From contig NC_092562.1 in NCBI RefSeq assembly GCF_037975245.1, positions 18,622,554-18,686,553 of the forward strand: 64,000 nt of DNA, read 5' to 3'. The position numbers and the translations under genes were made by a program. Origin of the DNA: Apostichopus japonicus (lineage: Eukaryota > Echinodermata > Holothuroidea > Aspidochirotida > Stichopodidae). How positions within the stretch are numbered: position 1 is the stretch's first letter; each line of letters begins with the position of its first letter. Shown here one piece after another: positions 10,701 to 64,000 of this stretch. The notes below the pieces were generated by a model. The model saw only the letters and a program-made list of their open reading frames with translations. It searched no databases and had not been told where the DNA came from.

Positions 10701-10850
10701 ATAAAAACGACTTGTGGGAGTTTAATAAAACGAGGAGGTGGAGATCCCTGTTCTCGTTGCTCCACCGTACCAGGACTCTGCTAAACACTAATAACAAAGT
10801 CTCTAATAGCCGGCATGTTGAGGATCGATTTTTCGTCTACGTTTATTTAC

Positions 10851-10955
10851 CTTGTCATAGTCTATGTTGGCGGTGTATCCGTCATCCACATTCTCTAAGG
10901 TCGGAATATTTCCCTCAGCCATCAGTTTCTCTTTTCGTGGTATACCAGCCAAATC
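10851..10955 (-). pseudogene. Orphan BRICHOS-family third exon (paralog C)
   Basis: A 105-bp open exon on the minus strand with a good acceptor (CTTTACAG) and donor (GTAAAT). It encodes DLAGIPRKEKLMAEGNI, then PTLENVDDGYTANIDYDK, clearly homologous to exon 3 of gene A (GVPRNEKMMVEGNI, then LIIENLNDGYTATFDHDK) but five codons shorter near its start. I find no matching exons 1, 2, 4 or 5 nearby. The duplication boundary and a SINE lie just downstream, where exons 4-5 would be expected. It is most likely a relic of a third paralog, though the reading frame and splice sites are intact. Confidence 0.75.
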
Positions 10956-17912: not shown

Positions 17913-20900
17913 TTAACAAACAGTAATAAAGTATGTTTCGCAATCTGTTACTACCACCCAAAGTTCACATGGTACTACTGGTTCTACATTCGCTTGTTGT
18001 CTTACTGCCGCTCGCACAATCCGTGTATCTTGGTTGTTCATTGGCTCAATCCAGAAGGATAAACTATCAATACATTGATCAGCTGCATTGATTAACTTGA
18101 GGAAACCAGCTGGTATCGGTTCTAATTGTTCTGCATACATCCTTGCATTGGAATGATTCAGTACCTACATCGAAAACAAAAATTCATATCAAAGTTATAT
18201 CGATTAAAGGCAGTCGCCTGTTCAAAGGTTTAGAAACCTAAGAAATAAAAACATGTAAATACTGTCCAAATTAACATTCCTATCAGAAAACAAGATGAAC
18301 AATGTATTAACTTGAAATGATACATAGTAAAATTATTGCCTATGCAAGTTTCTAAAGTACAATTGACAATGATGAAATATTTCTGCTTTTAAGTTGACAT
18401 CAACATATTGAGATCATCTCACAACAGTTTTGCTTTTCCTGCAGGGAGAGGGGTATTTATTGAGATACTTGATTATCAGACGATCAAGGCATAAAGAGTA
18501 GAAAATTTAAATAATGAGATAAGTTAGCATATATTACAATAAACGCCAATATTTTAAAATAATCTTACGTGTTCAAATAGTAATACAAGACTGTAATTTA
18601 TACATATCAGTTAGTAAAAGGTGTTTGGTTTTCTCTTCTAACTTGACATTCGGGACAGTTAAAATATGAAGATATTCGTGTTTCAATCCACATCATCTAT
18701 TTATATATAGGGTCAGTCAATATAGACTATAGATGAGATGTTTCATCTTTTCGCATTTAGATTGGCCTCAAAGTTATAGTTTTGACAAACAAAGAAGGTG
18801 AGCTTTATAACAGATAGTTCTTTAGAGTCACTGCATATGATGACGAATCACAATGACCAGCCTAGATAATTCGCATGAGTGCAAGAGAGGAGTGATATCG
18901 GACTGTCCGTAGCTTTAATACGTTTGTGGCATATGGAGCGATAGACTGGGACCATATGAGTAAACTGTATGATAACATATATGCAGTTACCTATTTAGGA
19001 AAAGGATTTTTAAAATGTTTTCCATCCTCATAATAGCAATGATCATATCATTCGAACAATGGAAAGACGAAACCAGTTACTTTTGTTCTTCACCACCCCC
19101 ACCCTCCCTCTCCAACCAGCTTGGTGAGGGGAAATGCAAACACTTCATGATGATGGTGGTTTGATTAGTCTCAGTCTCTTGTTTTCGTAACAAAGAAATG
19201 GTGGCATATTTCTAATTTATCATTTTTTAAGCGTCAGCAACAACTGGTTTAGTTTTACAAACAAACGAAGGTCCTTATCATAAATTAAATATATATCAAC
19301 ATCCCACCCTCTCTCACCCTCACCATCTCTCCCCCTCCACCTCTCTCCACCTCGCACGCTCTCTGTCTCTCCACCCACCACGCCCTCCTCCCGATCCCCT
19401 CCTTAACGAAAAGGATATCTTTCTTACCTTATCGGATGATGAATCAGCCTCTCGAAAGAAGAAGGGGAGAATATTGTCTAAATTACCCACAGACATATCT
19501 CCAGGGTAGTCTTCGAGTGGAGTGAAGTAGCAATTGTTGTTTTTCAGATCTTTAATCATGATGATGTTCTAAATCAAAACGTGAAAGACAAAAGTAGAAA
19601 GAAAGAATTCATAAAAGCTCTTGCGTTTCAGTCCTTAAAAGTAGCTGGATACCATGGAAACTCTACGCTCCCTATTCCCTCCCCATGAAAAAACGCGAAA
19701 TATCTGTGATAAATGCTTCAAGCTGATATTGATGCTTTAGTATGTCTTATGGTTTGTTAAATTGTGTGGTAAGTTTGAGTCTTTAAATTTGATAATTTTG
19801 ATAAAATGTTGCTACATGAAAAAAGAAACCATAATAAAAAAAGTTTTAAGTATTACCTTGTCATGGTCAAATGTGGCAGTATATCCGTCGTTCAAATTCT
19901 CTATGATCAGAATATTTCCCTCGACCATCATTTTTTCGTTTCTTGGAACGCCATCGAACATTTCAAAAGCCACTTCCTGTAAACAGAATAAGACAACATT
20001 CTTGTCAGTTTTCATTCATTAATTTACACCGAGGTAACAACTGCATACATCGACACTTAATAAATGTGCAAACAATGCATCCATTCTCCCTCACCACATC
20101 CAGTCCCACGATGTATCGCTGCCTACTCTTTTTCATCCTTCGTGCACCCTTGCCCACCCATATTCATCCTTCTTCACCCCAAGCCCCACCCTAACTCTGT
20201 CATCGTAATATTTTGATAGTAAAACTCATATCGGTTTATGGTAATAATCAATCTTTCAATCGAAATTGTAGTCTTTCATCTGTGTGAAGTTTATTTTAAT
20301 ATCCGAAGTATGCATGGATTTCCTTTACCTTTCATATTGTTTTGAACTTAATTGTCGATAGGTTACTTTAGTTTTACTTACCCTGATTATAACTACTTGA
20401 TCTCCATCTCCCGTCGTCAAGTTGTTCACAACCTTTGGATTCCCAGAAAACACGAGGTAGAACACACCAAACGATAACACCAACAGTGTGACAATTGTCA
20501 CTGTTACGGCGATAACATAGAGTTTCGTCTTACTCGGCTGCTGAGACTATATACAGTGAAAAGACATGAAAATCATTCAATACATGCAATTGACCGTTTA
20601 TGTGTATTTTCGCAATATGCTTGACTTTGTGACTTTCGCTTGACTTTGTGACAATATGCTTGTGATTGTGACTTTCGCAATATGCAATTCAATTTCTCGA
20701 AGTTTTCTCTCACAATTTTTGGTAGGATTACCCGCAGGGTCACACATTTCTTAAATTAAATCTGATTAAGGAAGGGTTCTGGGTTTGTTTGTTTTTTTGG
20801 TAGTTTAATAACTCCCTCATTTTATTTATACTTTTTCGATTAAAAACTTTTATTGCGTCGTAAACAATCATTTTCGGTTGGATTACCCTCAGGGTCACGC

Positions 20901-21619
20901 ACTAGTAAAATTAAATCTGATTTAAGAAGCGGTCTGGGGGTTTTTTGTGGTAGTTTAATAAATCCCTCTTTTTATTTATACTTCTTCGATTAAAACTTGT
21001 ATTGCGAAGTAATCTAACAGTATCAAGGATTTGAACCTGCCACTTTTAGTGGGAATTCATAAAGCTTTCGATTCGAAGGTTTATAGCCTCACATACAGTA
21101 AAGAAAATGGCAAGTGCTAGTCATTTACACACATGCCATGGTATTCTACATCCATATATGACGTCAGCTATATCAGACATCCAAAATAATTTCAAACTAT
21201 ATGTAAACTGGTTTACTTTCAAACCTAAGCAACCGTCTGTACTTAATGAGTTGCAATGAAGCTGTTTGATAACGTTATGCCAGCCTAATGGTAGACTGAA
21301 ATCACATAAGATTGTAGTTAATTAGATTGAGACTATATACAAGTTTTAAATAAAATAATGGGGTAAAATGCCGAACATCAAGCTCTTGATTTTACAATAC
21401 GTAGTTTATATGTTAACGACTTTAACTATACAACACCCTCATAGGTTACAGACTATAAATTTAGTAAAATTTTTGATGATAAGGAAGAGTAACTTTGATC
21501 TAATACCGAGCAGCAGAAATAACGAAAAAGCTATTTGTTAAGCATTAACTTACCGTATATGCAGGAGGTGGGCTCATGGCCACTGGAATATCACCTTTAA
21601 CTTGCATTTCTTGAGCCAT
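17913..21619 (-). CDS. BRICHOS-type type II membrane protein, gene A (5 exons)
   Basis: Exons (coding): 21554-21619, 20382-20546, 19857-19976, 19428-19568, 17913-18164; all junctions are GT-AG and phase 0; 247 residues. Residues 1-30 are a cytosolic tail ending in SPPPAYT, which holds a PPxY motif of the kind bound by WW domains (the pro-surfactant protein C tail has one too). Residues 31-55 are one membrane span (LYVIAVTVTIVTLLVLSF...). An NLT sequon (N64) follows. The BRICHOS-like domain spans about 78-200, with DGYTATFDHDK (candidate conserved Asp114) and the cysteine pair C130 (NNNCYF) and C195 (ADQCID). RIVR (212-215) fits a furin RxxR site and would release a 32-residue C-terminus with C230, C239 and C247. 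The start codon context is AAGATGG. The BRICHOS call rests on architecture and motifs, not on a search. Family members chaperone beta-prone segments of their own precursors. Confidence 0.85.
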
Positions 21620-28743: not shown

Positions 28744-31700
28744 CTAAAATGTTATTTTAATATGAATACAGACAGTTATCTTTGGCCACCATCCTCGTTT
28801 CGCCAATCCGCTCTCTTGTGGTGTCAGCCAATAGGAATCGCCGTTGGAACACTGGCTTGACACAGCAGGGCTGTTAGTCAACTTGATGTAATCCGCAGGG
28901 ATGAGATCTGATTGGCTAAAGTCGATGAGGTCAACGGTTTCATCAACTGGCACCTACGGGAGACATAGAGAACGCGTTAAATGTCGTTGTGAATTAATCA
29001 TCAGAAAAATACATAAAGAATCGAAGTACATTGTTTAAAAACATTCTTAAATATACGCGTCACACTTGGCCGAATGGAAATTTTATTACATTTTGATGCG
29101 ATTGGTTGAAGATGTAAGCGTATTTTGTCTCAAATTTCTGATAACGTTTTGCTTCTGTTCTTTTCTTTCTACTTTGCTACGTTGTTTTACTCACCAGGTC
29201 TGATCCGGGTTGTATTTCTTGGAAGTAGAAGGGATGAACGTTATCCATATCTTCCATTCCCATGTCAGGAATTTCTTGCAATCGGGTGAAGTAGCAGGTC
29301 GAAGAAGTCTGGTTTTTAATCATCACAATTTCCTGAAATATAAAATAATTCATAAAATGTCATTTAAAGTATGAAGCAGATGTGTGACGCATAAATACAA
29401 TAAAACACATTTTTCCATTGTTGCTTAGTAAATAATATGATAGCCTTTAATCGCCATACAGAGAAATGGAACTTTCTTATTATATATGGCTGGTTTACCG
29501 GAAAAGAACAAAAAGGACGGACATCATATAAATCCGATGACATTAACTGAACGAGTCTCTTAATTCAGGGTCGAGGAGGGGGTAAGGGCAGTCGCTGGCA
29601 TAGAGACCTTGCTAACAAATAATTAAATAACGAAATAAATCATGTTTTGCTGTCAAATATTTCGCCTCTTCTGTTATAATATGTTGAAGTATGGCGTGGC
29701 CAATTCTCTTCATTCTTCAGTAATTGCTTTGGGAAGGTTGGAAGGGAAGTGTGTTATTATAAGACCAAGGTAAAATTGCTCTTCATAATTGGGCTTACCC
29801 TTCCATGATCAAAGATGGCCACAAAACCATCGCCGATACTCTTAATGGTGAGAACGTCACCCTTGGCCGTCATGACTTCGTGATGTTGCACGCCATCACC
29901 CATTTCGAAGGATACACTCTACAAAGAATAAAATACACCATTTGACAACTATCTGCAGAATGTTGCGTTGAATTATATTTTGGGAATCAAATGACTAAAA
30001 TAGAATCCTCATAATTACTGTGACATTTACAACTAACAAGATTCGTCTTCAAGTGTGGAAATATCAAAGTTTAAAAGTTCCTTAATCCATTTTTGTTCAT
30101 TACGTGAATAAACTTTGTTTGTATTTCTGCGATAAAAACATTTTCTCAGTCGTGTGGTATGAAAAGGCATTGAAGGAATAACACTTTTGCTTCTTAGTAC
30201 TTTACATTAGATATGTTACTTAAGAACGACTTAATGCACACAAAAAACAATTATAGTAGCATGTTATAACTCATTGTCCTTATAGATTTCAGATCCATTA
30301 TGATATAAATAGCTGAATAACTTGCAGCTTACATGAAGCGGCCGAATTTTCCAGGTCCGCATAATAATTCAAATAATCAATGGGAAACTATCAGTCTTGT
30401 GATCTCAAGTAACAGACAAACTCGTCACATCCAAAATGATGCTGGATTTGGTAGGCTTCTGTACCCTATTATAATATCGCGTCGAAGGGTAATTATCTTA
30501 CGACGCTAAACAGCCACATGTTCATATTGAAGAAACTGAATGGCTTATTACTCATACTTCACGTCTGATAGCTATCCAGTTCAAAGTGTAAGCTCGCTGT
30601 GCTCTCTTACAAGTTAGAAGACATTTTCAGATGGCAAAAACTGTTTCTGGTACGAGCCGGAAATAATTATGCAGTGCCCACTAAACTATTAAATAATATC
30701 AACTATATGACAACCATTATCGCTTCAGCTTGTACTTACCCGAGTAATGACGATCGGATCTTCTGCTTCGACTTCGTTTGATAAGTTGTTTACAATCGTT
30801 GGTTCTGGTGCTGACAACAACATAAAAAAGACACCAAAGAATCCCACCAGGATGGTCACAACAATGACTGATATGGCCACCACGTACAGCTTGGTCCTAT
30901 CCTTACCCTATCGGATCAAGAAATTTTAAAGCAAATTAACAGCTAAAATAAAAAAAAATGAGTATTTGACAAAGTGACCAACGGAGGTATGAACTATTGA
31001 CAAGCCCTGCTGAAGATTTCTTGATTATTGCAGTATTGTAGTGCGAGTCACAAGTCATAGAAAGTTGCATAATGTATGACGTCATATCAGGATACCCGTT
31101 TCCAACTCGGCAAAATGCAGAGAAGGAAATCGAAGAAACATATTTTAAAAGCATATATAAAACTGTTGACTTCGTTTCGTTAGTATAACCAACACGATTA
31201 ATATCTCCACTGGCGTTTACAATATAAATTCGTCACTTTCAGAGCTTGCCATTATAGAAATTATTCAACTATGGATGCTACCCACCATAACATAGCTGAG
31301 GACTTGCACTATCATTTGATACTTGCTAATTGCCATACCATGACCGTTAAAATGTTGACCTAGAAGAAGAAACGGTTTAGAATGGTCTGTTCATTCAACC
31401 ATATGTCTAAGCAGTCCTCTCCCACGAGTACGAGTAAAATTCCCCTTGATATCAGTATAGGCAGGTTGAGATACGAGTACCTAATCTCGACTAGATTCCG
31501 AGTACGAGTAAAAAATCCACACGAATACAGGTCTCTATGCTAAATTACGAGTACACCATCTCTGCAAAATAGACAACACTTTTGATCTCGTTTGCATTTC
31601 TGTATTTCGTCCCCGCTCCCCAATATTATACATGAATAGCAGCATATTGTCATGGATTCAGTACATTCGATGTTTTTACCTGTTCTGCGAGTAGCTTTAG

Positions 31701-33121
31701 ACAGGAGCGTAATGCTATTTCTCTACTGGATCGGTGTAACAGTGTAGGTGCATTTACTTAGAGCTATTAAAATGAGGAAACAGTTGTTGTAAGTCAGGTT
31801 ATGTTGGCCGTGCATGGATATATCTATCATTAGTCTACCTCCAGTCTCCATTTTAAAATATGTAGAAATGTTTTCAAATATAACATCTCCCTAATAAAAT
31901 ACAGTTTCTCATAGCTGCTGGCGGCGTTTCTCAAGCTTTATGTAACGCCAAAAGGGCAAATGTTGTCGAAGATGACAACTATCTTGATGAAAATGACCAC
32001 TTTCTTGATGATGGACACAAATATTTCGATGATGACTGCTATTATTTTGACACGGATAGCCACTATCTTGATGATGACGACAACCATAACTAAGATCGAT
32101 GTTAACTTGAAGTCGAATTTCTAAATGACAGTATGCAATTCGAATACCGTGCAAATGGAAGGCACATACATATTTGAAAATTTGGAAACTGAGTTTAATG
32201 TATTTTCGAAATTGTAATTCGTACGGACGCCAGAACGGGGAAGAATTATGGTATATCAATACAGTATCATCCATACCATTGTTCTGTTTATTTCCTAAGT
32301 TTCGTCAAATTGGGTAACATTACTCTAAGACCTTTTTGGTCTATTGTAAAATACCCTTTCTACATTAATTTATTAGTAAGAAAATGTGTTGTTGTTATCA
32401 ACAGAACAAAACGAAATGAAGGGGAAAATGTCGCTATCAGTTTAGGACCTGCAGCTCGGATGAACCGCATGCCTCTCAACTAACTAACGATGTTTCTCAG
32501 ATTACTACTCAATTATTTGCTTTAATCTAGTCGCCTGAAAAGACACAATCAGATGATATAATATGATCCCCTAATGACAAGAACAATGAGATACATTTAG
32601 GCATAAGCAAAGTACTAACACTTTGTCATAACATAATATTAATCATTCAAGCTGTATAGCAAATACCGACTTTCTGTGGCTGTGAGTTTAATAGCATTTC
32701 CATGACGGGAATGAAGGATTCGACAAACTGACCTGACAAGGAAATACCTAAATAATGCAATTCATTAACTTTACTTGTCAAGTTGTATGTTAAATATTGA
32801 GTAAACTTGTAACTATTCCAGATTTGAATTTGCATGTGTTGAATATGACACGGATGTCTGAACGACGAAACGTTTCTTAATCGAAAAACATTTATTACTC
32901 GTTATATTTAACGTTCATCCGAGTGGTGGACAAAACAATCTAGAACAGGCTGTGAGTTGGCTTGATCGATTGAATCAAATTTTGAATGAGCGTTGAAATA
33001 GTTATTTGCAATTGAAAACAACAAGAAAATAAGACAAAAGCTTAAGTGATTTCCTTACCTGATACGCAGGAGGTGAATCCATCACCATGGAAAGATCTTT
33101 TCCTCGCATCTCTTGAGCCAT
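28744..33121 (-). CDS. BRICHOS-type type II membrane protein, gene B (5 exons)
   Basis: Exons (coding): 33059-33121, 30740-30907, 29799-29918, 29195-29332, 28744-28953; all phase 0 with GT-AG junctions; 232 residues. It has the same plan as gene A: tail ending SPPAYQ (PPxY), membrane span about 28-53, NLS sequon at N62, BRICHOS-like domain about 78-200 with DGFVAIFDHGR, C130 (STCYF) and C198 (SSQCSNG). ESGLAKR ends at residue 216; the dibasic KR aligns with RIVR of gene A. After it comes a 16-residue C-terminus, GWWPKITVCIHIKITF, cationic and strongly beta-prone with one cysteine. The layout resembles BRICHOS antimicrobial-peptide precursors described in polychaetes; any such activity here is inference. 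It is clearly paralogous to A, and its intron 1 (2.15 kb) is longer. Confidence 0.85.
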
Positions 33122-35039: not shown

Positions 35040-35944
35040 TTGACAAAATGTGCGACTATGATATTAACTGTAATCTGACGAAGTGGGTGTTGGACTTTCT
35101 AACAAACAGGATCCAGTGTCTGTAGATTTTCAAGTGACATTGTTACAAACACTGGCGCCCCGCAAGTTTGTGTTATATCACCTGTTCTATTCAACCTTTA
35201 TACTTCTAGCTGTCGTAGCACACAACCTAACACGCATATTGTTAAATTTGCCGACGACACATGCATCTTAGGTCTTATTGGTAAGAATGGTGACGAGGCC
35301 GGGTATAGGCAAGAAATATCCACCTTCAAAAACTGGTGTGATGAAAACAGATTACAACTGTATGTGTCTAAAACAAAGGAGCTCGTCATTGGTTTTCGAC
35401 GTAGTAGGCACCGACTTGAGGGAATGGAGATTGGAAATGAATCAGTAGAACAAGTGCAATCTTATAAATACCTGGGAGTAACCATCACTGATAAATTGGA
35501 GTGGGATGAACATGTAAAAACTGTTCTAGCAAAAACCTAATCAGCGTATGTTCCTATTAAGGAAGCTTAATTCATTCAGACTAGTCACGACTCTCATTTC
35601 TCTGTTCTATAAAGCGGCAATCGAGACCATCATTACATTCTGTTTAGCCGCCTGGGGTGGAAAATACTACTGCTAGAGACATGACCGAGTTAAATAGACT
35701 AGTTTCTAAAGCAAGGAATGTTTGTCGGTCACAGCACCGCAGTTCAATAGATGAGTTGCTTGTCACAGTATCACAGAGAAATATGAAGTCAATCATGTCA
35801 TCCCAACATCCTCTGGGGCATCGGGTAGATTACAGCAATCGAACGGGCAGACCCATTGTCATGAGATGCCGAACTGAGAGATACAGGCGTTCGTTCTTGC
35901 CAAGGGCTATTCTCAATCTTGCCAATGAATTCTGTAGGAAATAG
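35040..35944 (+). pseudogene. CR1/L2-type LINE reverse transcriptase C-terminus, broken
   Basis: Fragments in order: KWVLDFLTNRIQ, a GAPQVCVISPVLFNLYT segment, the catalytic KFADDT (35244-35261), FKNWCDENRLQLYVSKTKEL, VEQVQSYKYLGVTITDKLEW, then the thumb/connection region, and HPLGHR plus RCRTERYRRSFLPRAILNLAN at the end. This order is typical of CR1/L2/Rex-like non-LTR retrotransposons. Stops and frameshifts (around 35120, 35540 and 35670) break it. Confidence 0.8.
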
Positions 35945-36949: not shown

Positions 36950-37172
36950 AGAGATCATGACACGGGCATATGTCACTCATTGAAATGAAATATTTGGACA
37001 ATTTGATAGACAAATATAAAACTTTTTTTGTTAAAAAAACTTATTTTCGTGTAGAAAATATCAAATGAAAAAAAAACGTCCCACCGTTGCTCGAAAAATA
37101 AGCAGTTTAACCTTCAGACTCAATGACGTCATTGCATGAACGATGTTTAGTATGACATACACTGTCTGTACA

Positions 37173-38807
37173 TATGGCAAGCCGTTTTAACATTTACCTC
37201 GCAATTAGACTTAAGTCGAATACATTTCACTTAAGTGGAATACATTCTACTTAAGTGAGATGGAATTCCACTTAAGTAAAATATATTCCACCTAAGTGGA
37301 ATTCAATTTCACTTAAGTGGAAATGGACATTTCTATTTCACTTAAGTGGAAATGAATTCCACTTAAGTGGAATTGTATTCCACTTAAGTGGAAATGCATT
37401 CCACTTAAGTGGAATTGTATTTCACTTAAGTGGAATGCATTTCCACTTAAGTGGAATACAATTCCACTTAAGCTAAATAGCCCATCTATTTCACTTAAGT
37501 GGAATACAATTCCACTTAAGTGAAATGCATTTCCACTTAAGTGAAATACAATTCCACTTAAGTGGAATGCATTTCCACTTAAGTGGAATTGTATTCCACT
37601 TAAGTGGAATACAATTTCACTTAAGTGGAATCATATCTTTTGGGCGTCAATTTCACTTAAGTGGAATTCTATTCTGCTTAAGTAAAGTACAATTCCACTT
37701 AAGTGGAATTGTTGATATGTGGCTTATATATAAATATAATTTAGGGTAATGTTCGTCGTAACGCATTCAATTGCTCATCACATATGATGATGTAGTCGAT
37801 CCTCGTTGCACGTGTATATCATGACTATGGCTAATCATTCACATCTAACATTGCTGTAATGCGATCAAAAAATTGTTGTTGTTAGAGACACAATTCGAAG
37901 TGATGTTTCCTCACTTGCACAGGGGATTAATCAGTATGATGCACAACAGAGGCGACTTACATCTTAAGTAACATAGGCAGAATTCGTAACTTTTTAGAGA
38001 GTGAAACTTTTGATAAATAAAAGATTCCATCCAAAACCCCAAATCCACAAAAAGTTAAACGTTCTCTTGCCCTTGTCAATGCGTTTTCGGCTGTAGCTCC
38101 AACCACTTATTATGTATTGGCTTTATTTTGGTAATGGTATTCGTCAGGTACCAGGTCAGGTACGTAGGTACACACCTTGCACGGATGTTTAGTGCTAGCT
38201 GGATCCCGATGGACAGCCGATATTCATTGTGCACATATCGACACCACGTACGTACTTACACGTATCGCGGCAAGTTGTTTATAATGGCGCGCAAAGGCAT
38301 GGGCAAAGTTTGGCGGTGAATGCACTAGCCAATCACATTCCACTTAAGTGGAATAGACAAGCCAATCACATTCCACTTAAGTGAAATAGATTATCCAATC
38401 ACATTTCACTTAAGTGGAATGCATTACCACTTAAGTGGAATTGTATTCCACTTAAGTAAAATAGACAGGACATTCCACTTAAGTGGAATTGTATTCCACT
38501 TAAGTAGAATACAATTCCACTTAAGTGAAATGCATTTCCACTTAAGTGGAATACAATTCCACTTAAGTGGAATGCAATTCCACTTAAGTGAAATAGAATT
38601 TAGCTTAAGTGAAATGCAGTGACAAGTTGATGAATTCAGCTTAAGTAAAATACAATTAAGCTTAAGTGGAATGGTATTCCACTTAAGTGAAATAGAATTC
38701 CACTTAAGTTAAATAGTATTCTGCTTAAGTGAAATTGAATTCCACTTAAGTGAAATGTATTCGACTTAAGTCGAATTGCGAGGTAAATGTTAAAACGGCT
38801 TGCCATA
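37173..38807 (+). mobile_element. Palindrome-array transposon P1 (TATGGCAAGCC ends, 6-bp duplication)
   Basis: The terminal inverted repeat starts TATGGCAAGCCGTTTTAACA and runs about 34 bp, ending in a GACTTAAGTC palindrome. It is flanked by the direct repeat TGTACA on both sides. Both subterminal regions (37210-37715 and 38335-38770) are arrays of the 18-bp palindrome ATTCCACTTAAGTGGAAT with 3-nt spacers (21-bp period). The centre (37740-38320) is unique sequence with a decayed copy of the open frame intact in P3. The long HLSGIVF-type frames are products of the 21-bp (7-codon) period, not genes. Confidence 0.9.
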
Positions 38808-39964
38808 TGTACACGGCGTCGGGACGTATGGCAAGCCGTTTTAACATTTACCTCGCAATTAGACTTGAAGTCGAATACATTTCACTTAAGTGGAAATGGA
38901 CATTTCTATTTCACTTAAGTGGAAATGCATTCCACTTAAGTGGAATTGTATTTCACTTAAGTGGAATAGCATTTAAATTAAGTGGAATAACATTTCACTT
39001 AAGCTAAATAGCCCATCTATTTCACTTAAGTGAAATACAATTCCACTTAAGTGAAATGCATTTCCACTTAAGTGAAATATAATTCCACTTAAGTGGAATG
39101 CATTCCAATTAAGTGAAATTGTATTCCACTTAAGTAAAATACAATTCCACTTAAGTGGAATAATATCTTTTGGGCGTCAATTTCACTTAAGTGGAATTCT
39201 ATTCTGCTAAAGTAAAATACAATTCCACTTAAATGGAAATGTTTATTTGTGGCTTATATATAAATACAATTTAGGGTAATGTTCGTCGTACCGCATTCAA
39301 TTGCTCATCACATATGATGATGTAGTCGATCCTCGTTGCACGTATGGCAAGCCGTTTTAACATTTACCTCGCAATTCGACTTAAGTCGAAGTCGAATACA
39401 TTTCACTTAAGTGGAATTCAATTTCACTTAAGCAGAATACTATTTAACTTAAGTGGAATTCTATTTCACTTAAGTGGAATACCATTCCACTTAAGCTTAA
39501 TTGTATTTTACTTAAGCTGAATTCATCAACTTGTCACTGCATTTTACTTAAGCTAAATTCTATTTCACTTAAGTGGAATTGCATTCCACTTAAGTGGAAT
39601 TGTATTCCACTTAAGTGGAAATGCATTTCACTTAAGTGGAATTGTATTCTACTTAAGTGGAATACAATTCCACTTAAGTGGAATGTCCTGTCTATTTCAC
39701 TTAAGTGGAATGCAATTCCACTTAAGTGGAAATGCATTCCACTTAAATGAAATGTGATTGGATAGTCTATTTCACTTAAGTGGAATGTGATTGGCTAGTG
39801 CATTCCACTTAAGTGGAATGTGATTGGCTAGTACATTCAACGCCAAACTTTGCCCATGCCTTTGCGCGCCATTATAAACAACTTGCCGCGATACGTGTAC
39901 GTACGTACGTGGTGTCGATATGTGCACAATGAATATCGGCTGTCCATCGGGATCCAGCTAGCAC

Positions 39965-40771
39965 TTAAAGCAGCATTTTGCGTTGGGTCGCTTTTTTCCA
40001 CCTTTTTAACATGTGCATCGATTTTTTTACATGTATCAATCATAAAACAGCAAACTAAGATACCATCCAATTTTCATCCTGCCAAGAGCGTTAATTAGCG
40101 AGTAATTAACGATTAATATATATCGATAACGAGTAAAAGTGTCCTCGACAAAGTTTTCATATCTCCAAATCCACTAGTTTGAATTCCACCAATCAGTGAA
40201 TAGTATGTTTATTCATGAGCATTTTGCGTTTGGTCGCCGTTTTCTACTTTTTTGACATGTCCATCGAGTTTTTTACATACATCAAATCACAAAACAGCAA
40301 ATTAAGATATTAGCCAAGTTTTTCCCTGCCAAAAACGTTAATTAGCGAGTATTCCACATACAAAATTAAATCGCATTCAGTTCCCAAACCTACTAGTTTG
40401 AATTCAACCAATCAGAGATGCAGGTTTAGTTATGAGCCGTTGCTAAAAATAGATTCAAGACTTTGCGTTGGTACAACTCCCTGGTACAACTGCCGTATAG
40501 ACTGTACACAAATCAAGCGTGGTGTTATATTACGTATCTGTCAATGACGTTCGTAGTGTTTAAATATTCATATTATGGGCGAGGTTTATTGGGTTCCCAA
40601 CGGAAAATATCTTGGAGAACAACACAGTTGAAAGTTGCAATTTTTTCGACTTTTATGCCACCATTTGAAGTAAAATATAAATAGATAAGCTAGTTATGTA
40701 TGTCGTTATGGCATAGTGGAGTCAGTGAGGTTGAGAAATACCATAGTCGAGGACGCAAAATGCTGCTTTAA
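39965..40771. mobile_element. TTAA-flanked element N1, nested in P3
   Basis: The ends are AGCAGCATTTTGCG and its exact inverse CGCAAAATGCTGCT, bounded by TTAA on both sides. The matching site in P2 (about 41929-41935, ATGTTAAGTGC) has a single TTAA and no insert. The interior has two diverged copies of a ~240-bp unit (about 39975-40200 and 40220-40440). No transposase is seen. Confidence 0.88.
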
Positions 40772-40824
40772 CATCCGTGCAAGGTGTGTACGTATGTACC
40801 TGACCTGGTACCTGACGAATACCA

Positions 40825-41163
40825 TTACCAAAATAAAGCCATGGCAAATACATTACAAGTGGTTGGAGCTACAGCCGAAAACGCATTGACAAGGGCAAAA
40901 GAACGTATTACTTTTTTGGATTTTGGGTTTTGGATGGAATCTTTTATTTCGTCAAAAGTTTCACTCTCTAAAAAGTTACGAATTCTGCCTATGTTACTTA
41001 AACAAGATGTAAGTCGCCTCTGTTGTGCATCATACTGATTGTTGCCCTGTGCAAGTGAGGAAACAACACTTTGAATTGTGTCTCTAACAACAACAATTAT
41101 TTGATCGCATTCCAGCAATGTTAGATGTAAATGATTAGCCATAGCAATGGTGTACACGTGCAA
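40825..41163 (-). CDS. Uncharacterised 112-codon open frame inside P3
   Basis: An open frame on the minus strand starting with two candidate ATGs (residue 1 and a second at MANHLHLTLL). It encodes a mostly helical-looking protein with VVVRDTIQSVVSSLAQGNNQ, then LSNIGRIRNFLESETFDEIK, then VIRSFALVNAFSAVAPTTCN. I do not recognise a family. P1 (37830-38125) carries the same sequence broken by several stops, and P2 (41786-41910) has a truncated, open piece, so P3 has the best-preserved copy. It may be a captured host fragment or a remnant of an element-encoded protein. Expression is unknown. Confidence 0.35.
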   Translation of the reverse strand: MHVYTIAMANHLHLTLLECDQIIVVVRDTIQSVVSSLAQGNNQYDAQQRRLTSCLSNIGRIRNFLESETFDEIKDSIQNPKSKKVIRSFALVNAFSAVAPTTCNVFAMALFW

Positions 41164-42544
41164 CGAGGATCGACTACATCATCATATGTGATGAGCAATT
41201 GAATGCGTTACGACGAACATTACCCTAAATTGTATTTATATATAAGCCACATATCAACATTTCCACTTAAGTGGAATTGTATTTTACTTAAGCAGAATAG
41301 GATTCCACTTAAGTGAAATTGACGCCCAAAAGATATTATTCCACTTAAGTGAAATTGTATTCCACTTAAGTGGAATACAATTCCATTTAAGTGGAAATGC
41401 ATTCCACTAAAGTGGAATTGTATTTCACTTAAGTGGAAATGCATTTCACTTAAGTGGAATTGTATTCCACTTAAGTGAAATAGATGGGCTATTAAGCTTA
41501 AGTGAAATGTTATTCCACTTAAGTGGAAATGTATTCCACTTAAGTGAAATACAGTTCCACTTAAGTGGAATGCATTTCCCCTTAAGTGAAATAGAAATGT
41601 CCATTTCCACTTAAGTGAAATGGAATTCTACTTAAGTGAAATTGAATTCCACTTAAGTGGAATACATTTTACTTAAGCGGAATAACATTTCACTTAAGTA
41701 GAATGTATTCCACTTAAGTGAAATGTATTCGACTTAAGTCTAATTGCGAGGTAAATATTAAAACGGCTTGCCATATGCACGTGTGGCTATGGCTAATCAT
41801 TCACATCTAAAATTGCTGAAATGCGATCAAGTAAATGTTGTTGTTAGAGACACAATTCGAAGTGTTGTTTCCTCACTTGCACAGGGGAACAATCAGTATG
41901 ATGCACAACGTACGTAACTTGCACGGATGTTAAGTGCTAGCTGGATCCCGATGGACAGCCGATATTCATTGTGCACATATCGACACCACGTACGTACGTA
42001 CACGTATCGCAGCAAGTTGTTTATAATGGCGCGCAAAGGCATGGGCAAAGCTTGGCGTTGAATGTACTAGCCATCACTTAAGTGGAATAGACTATTCAAT
42101 CACATTCCACTTAAGTGAAATAGACTATCCAATCACATTTCACTGAAGTGAAATAGAATTCTACTTAAGTGAAATACAATTTCACTTAAGTGAAATAGGC
42201 AGGACATTCCACTTAAGTGGAATTGTATTCCACTTAAGTAGAATGCAATTCAACTTAAGTGAAATTGAATTTAGCTTAAGTAAAATACAATTCCACTTAA
42301 GTAGAATGCAATTCCACTTAAGTGAAAAAGAATTTAGCTTAAGTAAAATGCAGTGACATGTTAATGAATTCAGCTTAAGTAAAATACAATTAAGCTTAAG
42401 TGGAATGGTATTCCACTTAAGTGAAATAGAATTCCACTTAAGTTAAATAGTATTCTGCTTAAGTGAAATTGAATTCCACTTTAGTGAAATGTATTCGACT
42501 TAAGTCGAATTGCGAGGTAAATGTTAAAACGGCTTGCCATAGGG

Positions 42545-42849: not shown

Positions 42850-42969
42850 GTGGGTGGAGTCCCCTGTTACCCTTGCTCCACCGTACCAGGACTCTGCTTA
42901 ACTATGATAACAAATTCACTAATCGCCGGCATGTTCTGAGGATCGATTTTCCGTCAACGTTTATTTACC

Positions 42970-43063
42970 TTGTCATAGTCTATGTTGGCGGTGTGTCCGT
43001 CATTCACATTCTCTATGGTCAGTATATTTCCCTCAGCCATCATTTTCACTTTTCGTGCCAGAT
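42970..43063 (-). pseudogene. Damaged copy of the orphan third exon (paralog C')
   Basis: Encodes LARKVKMMAEGNILTIENVNDGHTANIDYDK-like sequence in one frame with an intact donor. The region that held the acceptor and first codons in copy 1 is altered (TTCGTGCCAGATAAC), so the splice acceptor is lost. It confirms that the C exon predates the duplication and is decaying here. Confidence 0.75.
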
Positions 43064-52578: not shown

Positions 52579-55500
52579 TTAACAAAGAGTAAGAAAATAT
52601 GTTTCGCAATCTGTTACTACCACCCAAAGTTCACATGGTACTACTGGTTCTACATTCGCTTGTTGTCTTACTGCCGCTCGCACAATCCGTGTATCTTGGT
52701 TGTTCATTGGCTCAATCCAGAAGGATAAACTATCAATACATTGATCAGCTGCATTGATTAACTTGAGGAAACCAGCTGGTATCGGTTGTAATTGTTCTGC
52801 ATACATCCTTGCATTGGAATGATTCAGTACCTACATCGAAAACAAAAATTCATATCAAAGTTATATCGATTAAAGGCAGTCGCCTGTTCAAAGGTTTAGA
52901 AACCTAAGAAATAAAAACATGTAAATACTGTCCAAATTAACATTCCTATCAGAAAACAAGATGACCAATGTATTAACTTGAAATGATACATAGTAAAATT
53001 ATTACCTATGCAAGTTTCTAAAGTACAATTGACAATGATGAAATATTTCTGATTTTAAGTTGACATCAACATATTGAGGTCATCTCACAAAAGTTTTGCT
53101 TTTCCTTCAGGGAGAGGGGTATTTATTGAGATAATTCATCATCGGACTATCAAGGCATAAAGAGAAGAAAATTTAAACAATGAGTTAAATTAGCAATTAT
53201 TACAATAAATACAAATATCTTAAAGTAATCTTACGTGTTCAAATATTAATACATGACTGTAATTTATACATATCAGTTATTTAAAGGTGTTTTATTTTCT
53301 CTACTAACTTGACATTCGGGACAGTTGAAATCTGGAGATATTCGATACTGGGATAACTCCAATTAGTCTCTCTACATGTATGGGGTCTGACACAAGATCA
53401 TTAAGACACACCGTCCTCGGGAATTTCCCTAGTGGGATGTTTCAATCCACATCACCTATATATATAGGGTCAGTCAATATACATTATAGGTGAGATATTT
53501 CATCTTAACGCGTTTTGATTGGTCTCAAAGTTATTGTTTCGACAAACAAAGAAGATGAGCTTTATTAAAAATAGTTCTTTGGGGTCGCTGCATATGATGA
53601 CGAATTATGATGACCAGCCTAGATAATTCGCATGAGCGAAGAGAGACCTGTGTGATAACATATATGCATATACCTATTTAGGAAAATGATTTTTAAAATG
53701 TTTTCCATCCTCATAATAGCAATGATCATATCATTCGAACAACCGAAAGACGAAACCAGTTACCTTCCCCCCCCCTCCCTCCCTCCCTCCCTCCCTCTCC
53801 AACCAGCTTGGTGAGGGGAAATGCAAACACCTCCTGATGATGTTGGTTTGATTAGTCTCTGACCCAGTCTCTTGTTTTCGTAACAAAGAAATGGTGGCAT
53901 ATTTCTAATTTATCACTTTTTCGCGTCAGCAACAACTGGTTTAGTTTTACGAACAAACGAAGGTCGTCATCATGAATATATCAACATCCCACCCTCTCTC
54001 ACTCTAAACCTCTCTCTACCTACACCTCTCTCTCCATCTATCTCTCTATCGCACGCTCTCTGTCTCTCCACCCACCACGCCCTCCTCCCTGATCCCCTCC
54101 TTAACGAAAAGGATATCTTTCTTACCTTATCGGAAGATGAATCAGCCTCTCGAAAGAAGAAGGGGAGAATATTGTCTAAATTATCCACAGTCATATCTCC
54201 AGGGTAGTCTTCAAGTGGAGTGAAGTAGCAATTGTTGTTTTTCAGATCTTTAATCATGATGATGTTCTAAATCAAAAAGAGAAAGACAAAAGTAGAAAGA
54301 AAGAATTCATAAAAGCTCTTGCGTTAAAGTCCTTAAAAGTAGCTGGATACCATGGAAACTCTACGCCCCCTATCCCTTCCCATGACAAAAAGCGAGACAT
54401 CTGCAATAAATGCTTCAAGCTGATATTGATGCTTTAGTATGTCTTATGGTTTGCACAATTGTAATGTAAGTTTGAGTCTTTAAATTTGATAATTTTGATA
54501 AAATGTTGCTACATGAAAAAAGAAACCATAATAAAAAAGTTTTAAGTATTACCTTGTCATGGTCAAATGTGGCAGTATATCCGTCGTTCAAATTCTCTAT
54601 GATCAGAATATTTCCCTCGACCATCATTTTTTCGTTTCTTGGAACGCCATCGAACATTTCAAAAGCCACTTCCTGTAAACAGAATAAGACAACATTCTTG
54701 TCAGTTTTCATTCATTAATTTACACCGAGGTAACAACTGCATACATCGACACTTAATAAATGTGCAAACAATGCATTCATTCTCCCTCACCACATCCAGT
54801 CCCACCATGGCTCATTGCCCACTCTTTTTTATCCTTCGCACACTTGCCCACCCATATTCATCCTTCATCACCCAAGCCCCACCCTAACTCTGCCATCGTA
54901 ATATTTTGATAGTAAAACTCATATCGGTTTATGGTAATAATCAATCTTTCAATCAAAATTGTAGTCTTTCATCTGTGTGAAGTTTATTTTAATATCCGAA
55001 GTATGCATGGATTTCCTTTACCTTTCATATTGTTTTGAACTTAATTGTCGATAGGTTACTTTAGTTTTACTTACCCTGATTATAACTACTTGATCTCCAT
55101 CTCCCGTCGTCAAGTTGTTCACAACCTTTGGATTCCCAGAAAACACGAGGTAGAACACACCAAACGATAACACCAACAGTGTGACAATTGTCACTGTTAC
55201 GGCGATAACATAGAGTTTCGTCTTACTCGGCTGCTGAGACTATATACAGTGAAAAGACATGAAAATCATTCAATACATGCAATTGACCGTTTATGTGTAT
55301 TTTCGCAATATGCTTGACTTTGTGACTTTCGCTTGACTTTGTGACAATATGCTTGTGATTGTGACTTTCGCAATATGCAATTCAATTTCTCGAAGTTTTC
55401 TCTCACAATTTTTGGTAGGATTACCCGCAGGGTCACACATTTCTTAAATTAAATCTGATTAAGGAAGGGTTCTGGGTTTGTTTGTTTTTTTGGTAGTTTA

Positions 55501-56311
55501 ATAACTCCCTCATTTTATTTATACTTTTTCGATTAAAAACTTTTATTGCGTCGTAAACAATCATTTTCGGTTGGATTACCCTCAGGGTCACGCACTAGTA
55601 AAATTAAATCTGATTTAAGAAGCGGTCTGGGGGTTTTTTGTGGTAGTTTAATAAATCCCTCTTTTTATTTATACTTCTTCGATTAAAACTTGTATTGCGA
55701 AGTAATCTAACAGTATCAAGGATTTGAACCTGCCACTTTTAGTGGGAATTCATAAAGCTTTCGATTCGAAGGTTTATAGCCTCACATACAGTAAAGAAAA
55801 TGGCAAGTGCTAGTCATTTACACACATGCATGGTATTCTACATCCATATATGACGTCAGCTATATCAGACATCCAAAATAATTTCAAACTATATGTAAAC
55901 TGGTTTACTTTCAAACCTAAGCAACCGTCTGTACTTAATGAGTTGCAATGAAGCTGTTTGATAACGTTATGCCAGCCTAATGGTAGACTGAAATCACATA
56001 AGATTGTAGTTAATTAGATTGAGACTATATACAAGTTTTAAATAAAATAATGGGGTAAAATACAGAACTTCAAGCTCTTGATTTTACAATACGTAGTTTA
56101 TATATTAACGATTTTAATTTTACAAAACCCTCATAGGTTACAGACTATAAATTTAGTAAAAGTTTTGATGATAAGGAAGAGTAACGCTGATCTAATACCG
56201 AGCAGCAGAAATAACGAAAAAGCTATTTGTTAAGCATTAACTTACCGTATATGCAGGAGGTGGGCTCATGGCCACTGGAATATCACCTTTAACTTGCATT
56301 TCTTGAGCCAT
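52579..56311 (-). CDS. BRICHOS-type type II membrane protein, gene A' (5 exons)
   Basis: Exons (coding): 56246-56311, 55075-55239, 54553-54672, 54126-54266, 52579-52830; lengths (66, 165, 120, 141, 252) are identical to gene A; 247 residues. The first three exons encode the same protein sequence as A. Differences I can see are S/T and G/D in exon 4 (MTVDNLDN), E to Q in LQPIP, and the final residues FLTLC instead of FITVC. The PPxY tail, membrane span, sequon, C130/C195 pair and RIVR site are all kept, and so are the promoter features (TGACGTAGG at 56474, TATA-like box at about 56418-56426). It appears intact and is probably functional if A is. The high identity extends into introns, so the duplication or a later conversion is recent. 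Confidence 0.85.
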
Positions 56312-63463: not shown

Positions 63464-64000
63464 TCACCACGTAAATGTTACTTTAACAAGAATCAAAAAT
63501 ATTTTGAAATTTATATCAAAAGATCCTCGTCTCGCCAATCCGCTCTCTTGTGATGTCGACCAGTACGAATCGCCATTGGAACACTGATTTGACACAGCAG
63601 GGCTGTTAGTCAACTTGATGTAATCAGCAGGGATGGGATATGATTGGCTAAAGACGATGACGTCAACGGTTTCATCAACTGGCACCTACAGGAGACACAG
63701 GGCGAAAGTTAAATGTCGTTGTGAATTAATCTTCAGAAAAATGTAAAAGATGAACAGCAATAATATATTCCTTGTCATGAATAAGGACAAAGAATTTAAG
63801 TACATTGTTTAAGCACTTTCTTATACAGTATATCCACGTCGTGCTTGGCAGAATGGAAATTTTATGTTGACCATGAGGTAAAGGAAAGGCTCTTTAGGTG
63901 CTGCGGATGGCTGGAGATGGTAGGGTGTTTTTTTCTAAAACTCTGATAACGTTTTGCTCCTGTTTTTTCTATCTGCTTTGCTACAATTTCCTGAAATGTA
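63464..64000 (-). pseudogene. Gene B' (partial): exon 5 present, exon 4 almost deleted
   Basis: Exon 5 is 63464-63685, in phase 0 with a good acceptor. It encodes the same PADYIKLTNSPAV and QCSNGDSYW segments as gene B, then ESGLARR and a 20-residue C-terminus beginning GSFDINFKIF that has no cysteine and differs from that of gene B. Upstream, sequence matching intron 4 of gene B runs to CTTTGCTAC (about 63984) and jumps straight to AATTTCCTGAAAT, the last bases of the exon 4 acceptor region. The equivalent of 29181-29325, nearly the whole exon with its BRICHOS cysteine, is missing. Exons 1-3 would lie beyond the window. Either a pseudogene, an exon-4-less variant, or an assembly artefact. 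Confidence 0.7.

Follow-up and report, generated by a model that had tools for sequence, protein, structure and literature searches.

Tandem genes for putative BRICHOS-like precursors with divergent C-terminal tails on one chromosome of Apostichopus japonicus

In Bri2, a KR-type site is followed by the C-terminal peptide Bri23, which is released. Polychaete precursors, including arenicin, alvinellacin, capitellacin, nicomicin and HfBRI, combine a hydrophobic anchor, a proregion with a BRICHOS domain, a basic site and a C-terminal peptide that is often beta-prone, and the same features were predicted here, from genes alone, for a tandem gene family of the sea cucumber Apostichopus japonicus. 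According to the passages on the HfBRI precursors of Heteromastus filiformis, 13 BRICHOS precursors carry a dibasic site and tails of 18–91 residues, 5 of the 13 being transmembrane and two families lacking Cys (PMC10745061). The present family differs from these systems in its echinoderm host, in a BRICHOS signal below threshold and in near-identical tandem paralogues with unrelated tails; moreover, most of its tails are anionic, whereas the known polychaete peptides are enriched in cationic ones. In alvinellacin, as described in the relevant part of PMC5431198, the peptide is fixed and the BRICHOS domain varies, which is the reverse of the present family, where the tail varies. The ITM2/Bri proteins share with the family the putative type II membrane plan, the D/C/C signature and the D-C spacing of 16 (PMC2751770). 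A C-terminal peptide after a KR-type site (predicted here) is a further likeness, whereas the tandem array, the diverging tails and the lack of a significant match to ITM2B set the family apart. A comparison of BRICHOS precursors with cathelicidins, in which a conserved proregion is joined to heterogeneous C-terminal peptides, is drawn in a passage of PMC10745061; the likeness to the present genes lies in the manner of evolving, the domain and anchor are different, and homology is not claimed. One echinoderm sequence was placed in a divergent BRICHOS group in the portion of PMC2751770 concerned, and the BRICHOS passages of PMC11767717 name annelid worms. Among the matches listed, no title or abstract opening reported an echinoderm BRICHOS peptide family.

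The window, that is, the whole stretch of 64,000 nucleotides analysed, corresponds to C2:18622554-18686553, and positions below are in window numbering unless C2 is given. Gene B consists of five exons on the minus strand with GT-AG boundaries and phase-0 introns:

33059..33121, minus strand: B exon 0, start and short N terminus; the MAQEM start is common to A and B2
30740..30907, minus strand: B exon 1, hydrophobic transmembrane-like segment; GT-AG, phase 0
29799..29918, minus strand: B exon 2, conserved Asp; GT-AG, phase 0
29195..29332, minus strand: B exon 3, first conserved Cys; GT-AG, phase 0
28744..28953, minus strand: B exon 4 and stop, with the end of the BRICHOS-like domain, the KR site and the tail; open frame, AG acceptor
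28747..28794, minus strand: hypervariable B tail after KR; 20/48 identical to B2, neighbouring stretches 88-96%

Exon 4 of B translates as VPVDE...QESGLAKR, followed by the tail GWWPKITVCIHIKITF and the stop codon. The same five-exon plan was found in gene A (21619-17913) and its copy A' (56311-52579), and two lone relics of an A-type exon 2 were also detected:

21554..21619, minus strand: A exon 0
20382..20546, minus strand: A exon 1, hydrophobic transmembrane-like segment
19857..19976, minus strand: A exon 2
19428..19568, minus strand: A exon 3
17913..18164, minus strand: A exon 4, carrying the second Cys and the RIVR site, then the 32-residue tail (TDCE motif) and the stop
56246..56311, minus strand: A' exon 0
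55075..55239, minus strand: A' exon 1
54553..54672, minus strand: A' exon 2
54126..54266, minus strand: A' exon 3
52579..52830, minus strand: A' exon 4, tail end LTLC where A has ITVC
10848..10946, minus strand: lone A-type exon 2 relic (tblastn, 64% over 33 aa)
42966..43055, minus strand: lone A-type exon 2 relic (tblastn, 70% over 30 aa)

Searches of the species' own genome (671.6 Mb, 35 contigs) with the last two B exons and with A returned at least 17 and at least 61 matches, respectively, which are lower bounds since the search scores the best candidates only. Significant matches occurred on C2 only, mainly in two clusters, at about 17.93-17.98 and 18.55-18.69 Mb, while the two matches off C2, on other contigs, had E values of 1.1 and 8.7. 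Collecting the family in this way afforded relics and 12 gene models with exons 1-4 open (A, A', App, Az, Ay, Ao1, Ao2, Ax, B, B2, B3a and B3b). Six models (A, A', App, Az, B and B2) could be given an exon 0; for Ao1 and Ao2 the genome search with A included a match to the start exon, and the 2.1 kb scanned upstream of B3b contained no such match. The modelled start may be off by 1-2 codons for exon 1 of Ao1, Ao2, Az and App and for exon 4 of B3a and B3b. Further relic exons lie at C2:17975109-17975615, with partial matches near C2:18007051 and 18566811, and Ax, which may be degenerating, has a second exon-1-like stretch that was omitted from its model. The precursor architecture was common to all 12 models: a hydrophobic segment, an Asp-x15-Cys...Cys signature, a predicted convertase-type basic site and, after it, a C-terminal tail of 16-38 residues. 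The site lies 18-20 residues past the second Cys throughout and takes the form KR or RR in the B-type genes, RxVR in the A-type genes and RKVRR in Ax. RIVR of A, first described as sitting at the same position as the B site, is close to it but not exactly there, ending 20 residues past the second Cys where the B site ends 18 past it. Judged from these sequences, A and B are one family on one chromosome, arranged in tandem and probably evolving by birth and death.

Several other observations concern the surroundings of these genes. The spacing from A to A' and from B exon 4 to B' exon 4 is nearly equal, marking a tandem duplication of about 34.7 kb (17913-63685). A 21-bp unit around ATTCCACTTAAGTGGAAT is repeated between B and A' (37168-42505) in large arrays built as palindromes, whose inverted arms measure 580 nt (98%) and 593 nt (95%). 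An open frame at 35103-35540 contains a FADDT motif, which we take to resemble a piece of a non-LTR retrotransposon reverse transcriptase. Elsewhere in the assembly, contig 35 (16,099 bp) is the mitochondrial genome. Translated with table 9, its COX1 shows, judged by inspection, the expected Asn, Ile and Ser where AAA, ATA and AGA codons stand. Its genes follow the order COX1-R-ND4L-COX2 onward, with ND1 and ND2 on the plus strand (tRNAs by aragorn, some genes identified by inspection), as known from echinoids and holothuroids, so that both code and gene order mark an echinoderm and not a polychaete. A second COX1-like copy appears in two separate matches on contig C29 (31,219 bp), which is either mitochondrial DNA inserted into the nuclear genome or a copy produced by misassembly.

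The localised divergence of the tail was most evident between B and B2, an intact five-exon paralogue outside the window (C2:18592528-18599863) with all exons open. Over five aligned blocks, unaligned insertions excluded, 4453/4953 bases are identical. Among 1572 segments of 48 bp, the lowest identities all fell on the tail (19/48), and the minimum elsewhere was 30/48. Identity is 62/70 at the intron end and 153/159 in exon 4 before the basic site, drops to 20/48 in the tail, and returns to 139/158 and then 476/517 in the 3' flank (Fisher p for the tail: 3e-16 relative to the earlier part of exon 4, and 4e-10 and 3e-16 relative to the two flank stretches). Divergence jumps directly past the site's Arg codon. 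Beyond it, the two tails are no more alike in DNA than shuffled sequence (p 0.22), an alignment shifted by four codons gives 18/36, and the differences are spread evenly over the codon positions (9, 9 and 10 of 16).

Synonymous positions changed as well. A synonymous difference was found in 3/5 of the Ile/Phe codons retained in the tail, against 10/201 retained codons before the site (p 0.002) and 2/25 Ile/Phe codons there (p 0.02). Nei-Gojobori estimates were dS 0.073 and dN 0.030 before the site, and dS 1.96 and dN 1.01 in the tail, the latter being near saturation with only 9.8 synonymous sites. The raised synonymous change is not explained by amino-acid selection alone, so segment replacement or local hypermutation is possible. 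Tentatively, and with more doubt than belief, we suggest that the genome might replace or hypermutate about 50-75 bp, from the convertase codon to just past the stop, with the remainder of the gene and its non-coding flanks kept, so that the chassis would be refitted with amphipathic beta peptides, charge reversals included. Searches of the genome for a donor of the B or B2 tail each gave only the gene itself, and a reverse-complement origin of the tails, considered in three pairs, was rejected as it left no signal.

The first-pass annotation had contrasted B with a second copy, B', of which a single intact exon was found:

63464..63685, minus strand: B' exon 4 and stop, sole intact exon of the broken B copy

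Its translation ends in QESGLARR followed by GSFDINFKIFLILVKVTFTW and the stop. The annotation held that B and B' are alike up to ESGLAKR/ESGLARR and then differ, that the tails have 16 and 20 residues with one Cys and none, respectively, and that the DNA on both sides still aligns. All three points were borne out: identity is 145/159 before the site, 29/48 plus 6 gap columns in the tail, and 171/198 and 449/510 in the 3' flank (Fisher p 2.7e-6 for the tail against the part before the site, 1.3e-4 against the first 3' flank). The description of B' as a copy of B holds for its intact exon 4 and fails for a working copy. No match to exons 0-1 was found upstream, 88 bp are deleted inside exon 2, and a 144-bp deletion spans nearly all of exon 3, for which reasons B' was rejected as a working gene. 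The deletions remove the cores of exons 2 and 3, and the intervening intron parts still align. The intact exon 4 could possibly be spliced onto the A-type gene upstream, the introns being of phase 0. As B' is a broken copy, the B/B' comparison alone is unable to show adaptive change; tail divergence is nevertheless independent of B', because the intact B2 shows the same effect more sharply.

Other gene pairs gave a less uniform picture. Between A and App, the tail exceeded the part before the site in both dN (0.424 against 0.025) and dS (0.417 against 0.098). In the first 200 bases of 3' flank no more than 25 align, and the next stretch aligns at 372/427; the A/App divergence is therefore not confined to the tail. 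In B3a/B3b, nonsynonymous changes number 3 among the 22 tail codons and 7 among the 194 codons that precede them (p 0.07). Ao1/Ao2, and A compared with Az, A' and Ay, show 1-2 tail changes and few changes anywhere. That close pairs have so few tail changes indicates that turnover is episodic. The idea of fast-evolving mature parts thus applies to B, B2 and B' and, less cleanly, to A/App, and not clearly to B3a/B3b, Ao1/Ao2, A/Az, A/A' or A/Ay. As to rates before and after the site, the tail is faster in B/B2 and A/App, dS is raised there too, and the close pairs are unclear.

The tail peptides were compared by net charge (K, R, D and E counted along everything C-terminal to the site), a value that further trimming could alter. 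The charge is +2 for the B tail, +5 for the B2 tail KMHFRIRIKICISISFGR and +1 for the B' tail, and -3 for each of the B3a and B3b tails, DVTVEIDLTVVGVHVNIKIQWD and DVTIEIDVTVVGVHVHIKIQWD. Tails are net negative in 10/12 models, cationic ones being limited to B and B2 (plus the broken B'). The last two residues of the B2 tail are Gly-Arg, possibly an amidation signal, which would give the candidate product KMHFRIRIKICISISF-amide; those of the Ax tail are Ser-Arg. The A-type tails have 24-38 residues, charges of -1 to -6, a hydrophobic-rich composition and 1-3 Cys, and a TDCE motif is present in 7/8 of them, Ax being the one without it. The beta moment, compared with shuffles of each tail, was significant for B, B2, B', B3a and B3b (p 0.0024, 0.0037, 0.015, 0.0034 and 0.0075); combining B, B2, B' and B3b by Fisher's method gave p 1.8e-6, to be taken with caution as the genes are related. 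In six genes, the 20 residues preceding the site showed no significant moment (p 0.75-0.97), nor did the A-type tails (p 0.13-0.91). By the cruder measure of the longest alternating run, B2, B3a and B3b were significant (p 0.014, 0.0044 and 0.0049), and B and B' were not (p 0.094 and 0.052). The B-type tails retain a beta-amphipathic pattern despite the turnover of their sequence.

Taken with these features, the genes are reasonably likely to encode type II membrane pro-proteins in which a BRICHOS-like domain accompanies a convertase-released, beta-prone tail serving in host defence, antimicrobial for B and B2 at least. We infer that, with a short N terminus on the cytosolic side and an anchor spanning the membrane, the precursor would have its BRICHOS-like chaperone domain in the lumen, where the domain would shield the beta-prone C-terminal tail before cleavage. 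A proprotein convertase would then cut past the conserved basic site and free a peptide of 16-38 residues for secretion. In the B-type products this peptide would be an amphipathic beta strand, its sequence almost fully turned over between B and B2. The freed peptides would be membrane- or surface-active in host defence, and at least the cationic products of B and B2 would be antimicrobial. The earlier suggestion that the peptides are possibly antimicrobial gains from the cationic B and B2 tails and is weakened by the net negative tails of 10/12 models, so it fits B and B2 best; for the cationic tails, a defence role is our best guess. That so many tails are anionic points to a role beyond defence, self-assembly for example. 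In its full form that alternative, which we consider rather unlikely, takes the tails for self-assembling beta peptides that act in signalling or in a mucus or surface film, as Bri23-like rather than antimicrobial products, with cationic and anionic forms possibly co-assembling. It would account for the anionic majority, for a strand pattern shared by tails of opposite charge (B2 +5 against B3a/B3b -3) and for the hydrophobic-rich, Cys-containing A-type tails with their TDCE motif, but the rapid divergence of B2 from B would be unusual for a structural peptide.

The convertase-released reading includes a BRICHOS-like domain, and the evidence on this point is divided. The passage of PMC2751770 concerned names D144, C160 and C219 of ITM2A as superfamily invariants, and no others. 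All 12 models have the Asp and the two Cys, with the Asp 16 residues before the first Cys as in ITM2A and a Cys-Cys distance of 59-68 as modelled (59 in ITM2A; 69 in B3a and B3b if exon 4 begins two codons earlier). Judged by inspection, they also follow the plan of hydrophobic region, linker, BRICHOS-like domain and C-terminal region, the exons being laid out as a hydrophobic exon 1, a linker, the domain over exons 2-4 and then the C-terminal part. In Pfam scans, with matches taken at E up to 10, BRICHOS (PF04089) was matched by 4/7 members, Ao1 at 18.3 bits and A, App and Ax at 13.7 to 14.8 bits (14.8, 14.8 and 13.7 among the three). No other Pfam family was matched by as many members, but even the best score stayed below the curated cut-off of 25 bits, and the three B-type members scanned gave no BRICHOS match. 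An ITM2B sequence, the positive control, scored 76.3 bits. No BRICHOS chain was among the 3 matches of a PDB profile search at E up to 10, which were set aside as chance membrane-segment matches, and the NCBIfam matches were likewise dismissed as chance. In hhalign, the Asp and Cys fell in register with ITM2B, the alignment being weak (E 0.085, probability 0.7%). The Pfam family search of the own genome gave no match, nor did the control genomes, so that this search is uninformative, and ITM2B as query found none in the own genome in a search without a positive control. The BRICHOS identity first assigned therefore agrees with the invariant residues and not with the profile search, and membership is probable from sequence. 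That the genes instead form a membrane family of other descent, with the D/C/C pattern arising by chance and with different processing, would suit the sub-threshold Pfam scores, the PDB result and the weak hhalign alignment, but we regard it as improbable, given that BRICHOS led the Pfam matches, that the Asp-Cys spacing is that of ITM2 and that the four-part architecture fits.

Neutral drift of an unconstrained gene 3' end, which the variable length and sequence of the tail and the poorly aligning A/App flank might suggest, is disfavoured as highly improbable, as the B/B2 tail (20/48) lies far below the non-coding flanks (139/158 and 476/517; p 4e-10 and 3e-16), the B-type amphipathic pattern is retained and the basic site is kept in 12/12 models.

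If true, near-identical tandem genes with unrelated tails would offer a clean site at which to separate diversifying selection from segment replacement. With about 7% synonymous divergence before the site and an unrelated tail, B and B2 make the question directly testable in population data. In a deuterostome too, and not in annelids alone, the BRICHOS chassis would then be an evolving arsenal of beta peptides.
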